From Marinifilum sp. D714 (GTDB lineage: Bacteria; Bacteroidota; Bacteroidia; Bacteroidales; Marinifilaceae), in NCBI RefSeq assembly GCF_030851345.1, contig NZ_JALPNU010000026.1:1-55267 (forward strand): a stretch of DNA of 55,267 nt, in the 5' to 3' direction. Position numbers and translations under genes: made by a program. Numbering within the stretch: the first letter of the stretch is position 1; each line of letters opens with the position of its first letter. Under the pieces are notes generated by a model. That model was not told the origin of the DNA and did no database searches. It was given only the letters and a program-made list of their open reading frames with translations. This document shows, one piece after another, positions 38,560-39,216 of this stretch.

Positions 38560-38590
38560 TTTGGAGATTAAAAAATCATGCCTATATTTG
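38560..38590 (+). promoter_or_regulatory. Consensus promoter of the methionine operon
   Basis: TTTG at 38560-38563, a 19-nt spacer, and TATATTTG at 38583-38590: an exact match to the Bacteroidota -33/-7 pattern. Transcription would start near 38596, about 30 nt before the riboswitch and 620 nt before the metY ATG. Confidence 0.75.
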
Positions 38591-38628
38591 TTGCAGATAT
38601 TTAAGGTAATACTCGCAGGAGGATATCA

Positions 38629-38744
38629 TTAATTTATACAGAAGAAGTGAGAGAACAGGCTCGATGACCTTCTGACAACCCCGGCAAAACCAAAAGCTGA
38701 AAGGTGTCAAATCCTGACCATTTAATTTGGTGAATATAAATTAA
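38629..38744 (+). ncRNA. SAM-I (S-box) riboswitch
   Basis: The conserved core is present: GAACAGGCTCGATGACCTTC, then GACAACC, and AAGGTGTCAAATCCTGA near 38700-38716. TTAATTTATA (38629-38638) and TATAAATTAA (38735-38744) are perfectly complementary and form the closing P1 helix. The family binds S-adenosylmethionine and lowers expression when SAM is plentiful. P1 ends six bases before the ATG of a small Met-rich ORF. No classical intrinsic terminator follows directly, so the output may act on translation of that ORF, on transcript stability or on later leader structures. Confidence 0.9.
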
Positions 38745-38750
38745 ACGATC

Positions 38751-38870
38751 ATGAAGAAGACAGAAATTCACAATCAAAAGCAGGCTCAACCAGAGCAAAA
38801 CATTCAGTTGCAAACTTTGGCATCTATTACCACTATGATGCGAATGCAGCGAATGATGCGTATGCTGTAA
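38751..38870 (+). CDS. Met-rich 39-aa small ORF (putative leader peptide)
   Basis: A 39-codon ORF between the SAM-I riboswitch and metY. It begins MKKTEIHNQKQAQPEQ, is polar and Gln-rich in the middle, and ends TTMMRMQRMMRML, so six of its last eleven residues are Met. It has a proper ATG six bases after helix P1 and a TAA stop. The Met codons fall inside a potential hairpin (GAATGC 38842-38847 with GCATTC 38872-38877, and CAGC with GCTG inside). Clustering codons for the end product of the pathway is the hallmark of leader peptides that sense the charged tRNA. It could also be a small functional protein. I recognise no family. Confidence 0.7.
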   Translation: MKKTEIHNQKQAQPEQNIQLQTLASITTMMRMQRMMRML

Positions 38871-38877
38871 CGCATTC
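38842..38877 (+). promoter_or_regulatory. Hairpin over the Met codons of the small ORF
   Basis: GAATGC (38842-38847) pairs with GCATTC (38872-38877), and CAGC (38847-38850) with GCTG (38864-38867). The stem covers the six clustered Met codons and the stop. A ribosome stalled there would melt it. Confidence 0.45.
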
Positions 38878-39006
38878 TGTCTAAATTCTTTCCCAATTTT
38901 TTAGATGCTGGTGCGTATAAAATAACTCCGAACCAGGGAATTCAAATTCTAATTTACTTTTTCAATTGTTTCTGATTTTCAGAAATAGGAATTGATACAA
39001 TTTAAA

Positions 39007-39092
39007 CTGAATCTATCGAAGCATTCAGATTGGTTGTGCATGAGATAGATACGGAATTTGTGACCATCAGAAGCCTTTCGCTTCTAACCAAT
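39007..39092 (+). promoter_or_regulatory. Second structured leader region upstream of metY
   Basis: CTGAAT/ATTCAG (39007-39012 with 39023-39028) forms one hairpin. Directly next to it ATTGGTT/AACCAAT (39029-39035 with 39086-39092) encloses a coaxial hairpin AGAAGC/GCTTCT (39069-39074 with 39080-39085). It matches no RNA family I know. It may be the expression platform for metY, about 125 nt before its ATG. Confidence 0.45.
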
Positions 39093-39216
39093 TAACCAAT
39101 TTTAAAATCAAGGATTAAGCTTAAAGCTGAATATTGATGTGTATAAAGTATTCATCATGACAATAGCTAAAAGCAAATAGCTAACATCCAAAAGCTTGTT
39201 CAAAAAAAGAATCGCC

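Follow-up and report, generated by a model that had tools for sequence, protein, structure and literature searches.

In the 55,267-nucleotide stretch of DNA from Marinifilum sp. D714 that was analysed (contig NZ_JALPNU010000026.1, hereafter the window), the metY gene is preceded by a SAM-I riboswitch, which is expected to respond to S-adenosylmethionine (SAM), and by a short open reading frame (ORF) that begins directly behind the aptamer and ends in a run of methionine (Met) codons. The genes are ordered aspartate kinase, leader, metY, metX-like gene and homoserine dehydrogenase. The 3' end of the leader ORF reads TTMMRMQRMMRML; its stop codon ends at 38870 and the metY ATG lies at 39217, which leaves a gap of 346 nucleotides (nt). 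We argue below that the riboswitch and the short ORF probably act in series on metY.

The aptamer is complete (model positions 1–108) and scores well over the gathering score of 44.4; it is the sole SAM-I match in the genome at E ≤ 0.001. The RNA is classed as a SAM-I riboswitch on its sequence, its binding of SAM being putative. Helix P1, which closes the aptamer, is a perfect 10-bp A/T helix, and six bases separate it from the leader ATG. The SAM-I aptamer that an earlier note, made from the letters alone, had placed six bases 5' of an ATG is recovered by the RF00162 model. At Rfam gathering scores only SAM and Flavo-1 RNAs are matched in the window, and no T-box. Among 56 genomes of the family, 42 contain a SAM-I site. 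The features are collected in Table 1.

Table 1. Features of the metY leader and its surroundings, in window coordinates unless a contig is named
Feature	Position	Strand	Basis or remark
SAM-I riboswitch aptamer (RF00162)	38631–38742	+	cmscan 70.8 bits, E 1.3e-14
P1 helix, 5' strand, TTAATTTATA	38629–38638	+	perfect inverted repeat
P1 helix, 3' strand, TATAAATTAA	38735–38744	+	−16 to −7 relative to the leader ATG
Leader ORF, 39 codons, MKKTEIHNQKQAQPEQNIQLQTLASITTMMRMQRMMRML	38751–38870	+	relatives behind SAM-I in 22/56 family genomes
Met-rich tail (putative control segment), MMRMQRMMRML	38835–38867	+	six Met in eleven codons
Segment 1 (GATGCGT), within the Met codons	38855–38861	+	folds; can pair with segment 2
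Segment 2 (ACGCATT), whose first base is the third base of the stop codon	38870–38876	+	identical in 16 aligned Marinifilaceae leaders
C/T-rich stretch between segments 2 and 3, inner stem TCTAAA/TTTAGA	38877–38909	+	alignment, RNAalifold
Segment 3 (GGTGCGT), predicted to pair with segment 2 as a hairpin directly 3' of the stop	38910–38916	+	RNAalifold, 15 leaders
metY, O-acetylhomoserine sulfhydrylase (homocysteine synthase)	39217–40536	+	TIGR01326 648.6 bits, over cut-off; PF01053
metX-like homoserine O-acetyltransferase	40744–41778	+	top NCBIfam matches are MetX models, under cut-off
Homoserine dehydrogenase	41768–42958	+	NF004976 332.9 bits, over cut-off; PF00742
Aspartate kinase, upstream of the leader	37156–38412		
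Terminator-like hairpin with T-rich tail, 3' of aspartate kinase	38437–38458	+	
Putative Bacteroidota-type promoter, TTTG-N19-TATATTTG	38560–38590	+	exact consensus match
Leader-like ORF ending QVCCCCCCC	contig C39: 10842–10994	−	locus L371: leader 1498–1653, gene 565–1404

The leader is more than a chance ORF. Its relatives (E ≤ 1) occur at 23 places in the family, 22 of them directly behind a SAM-I site, the remaining one being chance-like (E 0.445); the two weakest of the 22 (E 0.07 and 0.25) are supported by their location as much as by their sequence. The ratio of nonsynonymous to synonymous substitution rates (dN/dS) is 0.37 over 16 Marinifilaceae leaders, with 0.23 in the tail and 0.44 in the body; these 16 were retained from 23 family metY sites after omission of six near-duplicates and of the divergent L006. 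Lack of conservation of the ORF or of its Met codons had been named beforehand as speaking against the idea of a leader peptide; both are conserved, and the Met codons are in excess over shuffled sequences (see below). The bodies of the leaders are unlike one another between lineages, and it is the tail and the location alone that recur.

To place this leader among the other riboswitches of the same type, we consider 173 SAM-I sites, 47 from the family (including L070, which is below the cut-off) and 126 from the order, two order sites below the cut-off being excluded. Gene classes were assigned by short sequence motifs, with a profile check of HcyBio (formerly labelled DUF39) for one representative, L063; 18 of the 173 sites stayed in the class "other". 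A leader was counted when the ATG of an ORF with 14 codons or more lies 0–20 nt behind the aptamer, and the counts are given per genus and gene class. The earlier note had proposed to look for short ORFs behind other SAM-I sites of Bacteroidota, and they do recur: for metY, 24 of the 26 genus classes in the order have one, and they are present in 9/9 HcyBio classes, in 8/10 classes of aspartate kinase/thrA and in 10/15 classes of unclassified genes. A looser rule (ATG from −3 to +59, 10–75 amino acids) yields an ORF at 60 of 60 metY sites. The metH classes have a leader in 12 of 26 cases, metB-like and sulfite reductase genes have none (0/4 and 0/2), nor has the single metX class, whose leader begins at +39. 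In two Marinifilaceae loci where SAM-I precedes a sulfite reductase-like gene, assigned by motif (L056 and L069), there is no ORF directly behind the aptamer, and a short ORF with NCCCCMYIPIDKG is seen at about +148.

At the level of the class, we looked at 90 sites, taken among the best-scoring SAM-I sites listed, a choice that favors strong aptamers (another 20 regions were excluded); by motif, 48 precede metH and 12 precede metB-like genes. An ORF that obeys the strict rule of place is present at 11 of the 90. Judged by eye, the class-level metY loci L313, L337, L356 and L365 have an ORF, that of L356 having a tail without Met or cysteine (Cys), and L312, L324 and L335 have none. When ORFs are called Met/Cys-tailed if at least three of their last nine codons are Met or Cys, 3/90 class-level sites carry one; with the metB-like and metH counts above, this led us to reject the upstream ORF (uORF) as a general feature of SAM-I riboswitches. 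In the family, order and class sets together, a Met/Cys-tailed leader is found behind 0 of 91 aptamers whose P1 is of the NNCTTA type and behind 105 of the 172 others. The leader thus belongs to metY, HcyBio and aspartate kinase loci whose P1 is not of the NNCTTA type. The effects of P1 type and of gene are inseparable in these counts, because the two co-vary. Two kinds of SAM-I site seem to exist in the phylum, those with an NNCTTA-type P1, which mostly precede metH or metB, and those with other types of P1.

A further set consists of named metY loci, the best 80 of at least 578 listed. SAM-I was found in 52 of the 80, which is a lower bound (a few of the loci have less than 1500 nt upstream), and 44 of the 52 have an ORF. 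In 39 of these 52 loci, the stretch from P1 to metY holds a Met/Cys-tailed ORF, compared to 0/52 on the reverse strand. Among the 28 named loci without SAM-I, 10 have a Met/Cys-tailed ORF within 600 nt upstream of metY (reverse-strand control 0/28). The leader is therefore an independent module, since metY loci can carry it without the riboswitch.

The tail of the leader is the part that calls for an explanation. In the window, Met is found at residues 29, 30, 32, 35, 36 and 38 of 39; the six Met codons that the earlier note had counted among the last eleven, and considered to be above background, are there, and the enrichment turns out to be general across leaders. In 51 non-metH leaders, non-redundant by genus and gene class, the last 11 codons contain 133 Met, compared to 49.2 on average and 67 at most when the codon order was shuffled 3000 times (the windows of 11 and 9 codons and their cut-offs were set after the sequences had been seen). 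At least two tail Met are present in 37 of the 51 and at least one in 47, and the bodies of the same leaders have 11 Met in 1145 codons. The 24 metY leaders have Met at 76 of 264 tail codons and 1 of 550 body codons, with 1/264 in each of the frames +1 and +2. The spacing of the ATGs differs among lineages, yet the frame of the ORF is preserved. The case of the metH leaders is weaker, because their total of tail Met (14) equals that of the largest shuffle; 6 of the 12 have at least two.

Met is not the only residue that is crowded there. In 37 named genomes outside Marinifilaceae, Met and Cys together make up 183 of 407 tail codons (45%) and 30 of 931 body codons (3%), the shuffles giving a mean of 65.4 and a maximum of 85 in the tail; 35 of the 37 have at least two. 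The other frames of the same tails have 50 Met/Cys codons in +1 and 8 in +2, the former count being explained in part by the fact that an ATG before T yields TGT or TGC. The Cys codons of these tails are 80 TGT and 51 TGC, a mixture which fits with the residue, rather than a string of bases, being kept. Tails end, for example, in ...CMCMCCCCC in Mucilaginibacter, ...MCMCCCMR in Pedobacter, ...MCCCCCC in Cesiribacter, ...CCCCCC in Lewinella and ...TRMR in Sphingobacterium. The tail is therefore probably coding, and the residue is Met and/or Cys depending on the lineage.

We also note a few individual cases. Three loci of one family (L106, L138 and L142, family f59) have a SAM-I site followed by a pure Cys tail (CCCCCCC, CCCFCCC), and the three SAM-I leaders of the genome G310 each have a different tail. 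In the genus g2, SAM-I and Met/Cys leaders ending in ...MLCMRMCMRMC (L007) and ...MLCMRMCMC (L010) precede what looks, by eye, like a transporter-like membrane protein, which is possibly a sulfur amino acid transporter.

The position of the start recurs as well. Of 45 metY, HcyBio and aspartate kinase classes, 40 have their first ATG at +5 to +16, compared to 7.6 expected. Ten metH sites have the gene's own start no more than 25 nt behind P1; it is located at +11 to +20 in all of them and at +11 to +15 in eight. The first start is thus similarly placed whether it belongs to an enzyme or to a leader, which suggests that P1 controls the initiation of translation. In Flavobacterium johnsoniae, A at positions −3, −6, −12 and −13 aids initiation and structure near the start inhibits it (PMC6847099). 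In 88 leaders, the proportions of A at these four positions are 0.67, 0.61, 0.73 and 0.73, versus 0.39–0.43 at 200 control ATGs drawn from the sequence behind the leaders; at least three of the four A's are present in 60 of the 88 and all four in 12, including the ORF of the window. There, the A's at −12 and −13 fall within the P1 3' strand and those at −3 and −6 are outside of it, so that the helix is predicted to overlap with the start region. Part of the signal at −12 and −13 may stem from the aptamer itself, because P1 is rich in A and U. Judging from this context, the leader ATG is of the Bacteroidota initiation type and its translation is putative.

The conservation extends behind the stop codon. 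In the 16 Marinifilaceae metY leaders, the final codons are conserved together with about 65 nt past the stop, and segment 3, like segment 2, is identical in all of them. Folding predicts the potential hairpin that the earlier note had placed at 38842–38877. Segment 2 can pair with the Met codons of the ORF (1:2), and RNAalifold, run on 15 of the 16 leaders, gives the alternative pairing of segments 2 and 3 (2:3). We computed the probability of the latter as a function of the position of a ribosome whose leading edge was set 12 nt past the start of the A site. In the absence of a ribosome the mean probability of 2:3 is 0.31 and that of 1:2 is 0.61. A stall gives 2:3 a probability of 0.47 at eleven codons from the stop (13 leaders) and 0.61 at eight (16); at a Met five or four codons from the stop the values are 0.92 (14) and 0.94 (16), and they are 0.00 when the ribosome is two codons before the stop or at the stop. 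In Marinifilaceae these alternative hairpins resemble the anatomy of an attenuator and may act on metY.

The mechanism that we propose, and to which we give a probability of about 0.66 as the best explanation, is a leader-peptide attenuator gated by a riboswitch. It relies on what is seen by comparing sequences: the conservation of the leader, its in-frame Met/Cys tail, its initiation context and the fixed spacing from P1. From these we infer the gating by SAM in the cell, the stalling, the direction of its effect and the involvement of Rho. The promoter would yield an RNA that begins with the SAM-I aptamer, in which the 3' strand of P1 would also belong to the A-rich region where ribosomes bind the leader. 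With SAM bound, P1 would be stable and the leader untranslated; when SAM is scarce, P1 would open and initiation would take place. The ribosome would then reach the Met tail (Met and/or Cys in other lineages) near the stop. If Met-tRNA is charged the ribosome would get to the stop codon, and if it is uncharged it would stall in the tail, which would alter the RNA around and behind the stop so that transcription continues into metY. A leader that is untranslated, or fully translated, would lead to early termination, most likely via Rho. The output would be an AND gate that turns metY on when low SAM coincides with low charged Met-tRNA (or Cys-tRNA). The earlier note had proposed such a layered control; the association of SAM-I with a conserved in-frame tail is in line with it, and its restriction to Met is too narrow, since the residue is Met and/or Cys.

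The output is the step about which we are most cautious. A general 1:2/2:3 switch was rejected, as it is found in 4/85 leaders versus 2.4% in controls (about 2 expected), and so was an intrinsic terminator, found in 1/40 leaders (1.2 expected) and 1/37 (0.8 expected). In the leader of the window itself, there is no intrinsic terminator between the ORF and metY, and the same finder detects the terminator at 38437. The change of structure before metY by a stalled ribosome, as the earlier note had proposed it, is thus at most predicted for Marinifilaceae, and neither a general switch nor an intrinsic terminator stands out above chance. Rho is the likeliest route of early termination because no intrinsic terminator is present; it is encoded in the genome (PF07497, 121.2 bits, in a 616-amino-acid open frame), and we favor it, with low certainty, by analogy with mgtL. 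We rejected a simple masking of a C/T-rich Rho site by the hairpin, because the predicted accessibility hardly varies, at about 0.5 for every position of the ribosome. We describe the whole as working like a leader-peptide attenuator and do not count it among the classical ones, because the intrinsic terminator that defines this type was looked for and not found.

These results on the output weigh against the proposed attenuator, and other observations do as well. Pairing directly 3' of the stop after a stall is predicted in 36/85 leaders versus 30% in controls, and in 30/85 the hairpin behind the stop forms with and without a stalled ribosome. The C/G ratio is 1.51 in the 40 nt past the stop and likewise 1.51 in the bodies of the ORFs. 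In Marinifilaceae, a stall at eleven codons, which corresponds to the first Met in 13 leaders, gives 2:3 a probability of just 0.47; five of the 16 leaders favor 2:3 (>0.5) without a ribosome, and most of the 346 nt between leader and metY are not conserved. Among the leaders, 14 of the 51 non-metH ones have fewer than two Met in their last 11 codons, and some lineages have a single tail Met codon (RMR-stop), which would be a poor sensor of starvation. Last, 8/52 named metY loci with SAM-I have no leader ORF, and the scarcity of Met/Cys-tailed ORFs at the class-level sites, which lie mainly before metH and metB-like genes, also counts here.

It may be that the riboswitch gates the leader, and that translation of the latter merely protects the transcript from Rho or RNases, so that the Met and Cys codons sense nothing. 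Such a relay would account for the spacing between P1 and the ATG, which resembles that of the seemingly directly controlled metH genes, and for the fact that intrinsic terminators are not found above chance; relays from a riboswitch to a leader are also known, for example uPPE2 of Mycobacterium tuberculosis (PMC11260477). It leaves unexplained why Met and Cys are crowded in frame in the tail and scarce in the body, and why similar tails exist at named metY loci without SAM-I (10/28), and we consider it unlikely. The tail could also act as a peptide. TnaC and SpeFL are nascent chains that react to a metabolite by arresting the ribosome on the stop codon, and a chain ending in R-M-R or M-x-M-R might do the same with SAM, Met or another compound. 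A single Met codon is of little use for codon sensing, and all 11 RMR-ending leaders among the 88 read exactly CGA AUG CGN UAG, each of the four bases occurring at N, and among the other 77 all three stop codons are in use; CGA makes up 28 of 81 Arg codons in tails versus 4 of 50 in bodies. (The 11 are L220, L229, L231, L238, L246, L249, L250, L252, L091, L100 and L105.) The fixed CGA and UAG could nevertheless reflect a constraint on the RNA, and runs of three to seven Cys codons, with TGT and TGC mixed, resemble codon sensing, so that arrest by the peptide appears quite improbable as an explanation of the leaders as a whole.

Two further hypotheses dispense with sensing by a translating ribosome. 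If the ATGs belonged to an RNA structure or to a protein-binding motif, the ORF would be incidental; palindromes such as GCATGC or GCGCATGCGC-like ones in some tails, and the ability of segment 2 to pair with the Met codons in Marinifilaceae, are in line with this. That the frame is kept despite variable ATG spacing, that the start context is enriched, that dN/dS is 0.37 and that third positions vary in the Cys runs all make it very unlikely. A small protein with its own unrelated function, simply co-transcribed with metY, would be consistent with a dN/dS below 1 in the body too (0.44), but the bodies differ by lineage, only the tail and the place recurring, and searches with eight leader peptides gave nothing in NCBIfam (E up to 1) and no Pfam match over the cut-off (one has two weak ones); we give this possibility hardly any credit. 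A wider version of the riboswitch-gated attenuator, in which SAM-I, in much of the Bacteroidota, does not switch metY, HcyBio and aspartate kinase genes directly but licenses a leader whose Met/Cys codons are a second sensor without an intrinsic terminator, and in which the RMR-UAG peptide is a sensor based on arrest at termination instead of a counter of codons, is doubtful. If true, riboswitch-gated attenuators of this sort would form a class with a new kind of output.

Leaders in which two signals are combined have already been described. The leader ORF mgtL is situated within the sensor region of mgtA, whereas the metY leader ORF begins behind a complete aptamer, P1 overlapping with its start region. 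What the two share is one 5' leader that holds an RNA sensor together with an ORF rich in a single codon: in Salmonella, a magnesium riboswitch is combined with the proline-codon leader mgtL, in a Rho-dependent manner (PMC5021804). The ligand and the residue differ, and the Rho step is only presumed for metY. In the met operon of Xanthomonas campestris, a SAM-I riboswitch also binds uncharged initiator tRNA (PMC7270179); this SAM-I switch integrates the status of SAM and of methionine tRNA over Met synthesis, mainly at the level of translation, as we propose here; there, the tRNA contacts the expression platform directly, and the available part of the text has neither leader peptide nor upstream ORF. 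The B12 riboswitches of M. tuberculosis that are followed by uORFs (uPPE2 and uMetE2) likewise relay their output through the translation of a short ORF (PMC11260477). In uPPE2 the stop and the start overlap, and no tail of pathway codons is mentioned in the sections at hand; such an overlap is absent from the metY leader, where the two codons are 346 nt apart. Tandem riboswitches are also two sensors in one leader that form a logic gate (PMC9481103), but both sensors are aptamers, T boxes included, leader peptides and uORFs being absent from the portion of the text available.

The trp and his leaders are the classical ribosome-mediated attenuators. Like them, and like the Cys-codon uORFs that precede cysS in Rhodobacterales (uORFC-8-2, PMC8632094), the metY leader is a short ORF with pathway codons before a biosynthetic or charging gene; those systems end in an intrinsic terminator and are not known to have a riboswitch in front. 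The available text of a study of Bacteroides thetaiotaomicron mentions that some long leaders contain short ORFs that resemble leader peptides. Leader-peptide control is otherwise hardly mentioned for Bacteroidota in the literature that we searched, most subscription papers and preprints being outside of it, and the earlier note's impression that a SAM-I riboswitch combined with a Met leader had not been described in this phylum agrees with our finding none there. In many genera, a leader-peptide attenuator seems to be wired in series with a riboswitch. If this is true, it would explain how Bacteroidota distinguish low SAM from low methionine or cysteine, and it would be a natural AND gate, for which an attenuation step without terminator is predicted. 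A translated ORF may be concealed in many of the long 5' leaders that precede metY, HcyBio and aspartate kinase genes in Bacteroidota.

The same genome contains another leader-like ORF, of 51 codons, which ends in QVCCCCCCC and has no SAM-I; a cysE-like serine acetyltransferase gene (TIGR01172, 161.2 bits, under the cut-off) follows 93 nt downstream. The ORF has relatives at 12 further places (E<0.001) in the genus and three neighbouring genera. Such an independent Cys leader suggests that control of sulfur amino acid genes by leaders may be a habit of these genomes. There are 11 places with Cys runs in the genome, compared to 0 for the backward control; five of the loci were read, and one is leader-like. 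We also considered His-run leaders as a second example and rejected them: there are 9 His places versus 6 for the backward control pattern, and none of seven His loci, judged by eye, resembles a leader before a his gene.

Regarding the surroundings of the leader, the terminator-like hairpin 3' of the aspartate kinase gene divides the two, so that metY probably has its own promoter. The earlier note had read an exact-consensus promoter there. The match to the Bacteroidota consensus (PMC7366714) is indeed exact, and it is weak evidence because the window contains 2 such matches when 2.33 are expected by chance. A scan for E. coli-type promoters returned 0 sites, which is no surprise because another consensus is in use. 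A Flavo-1 RNA (RF01705, 50.6 bits) lies on the minus strand at 55028–55099 of the window. Among the best 80 named metY loci, the closest proteins to that of the window are those of Marinifilum sp. D737 and M. breve, with 99% identity.

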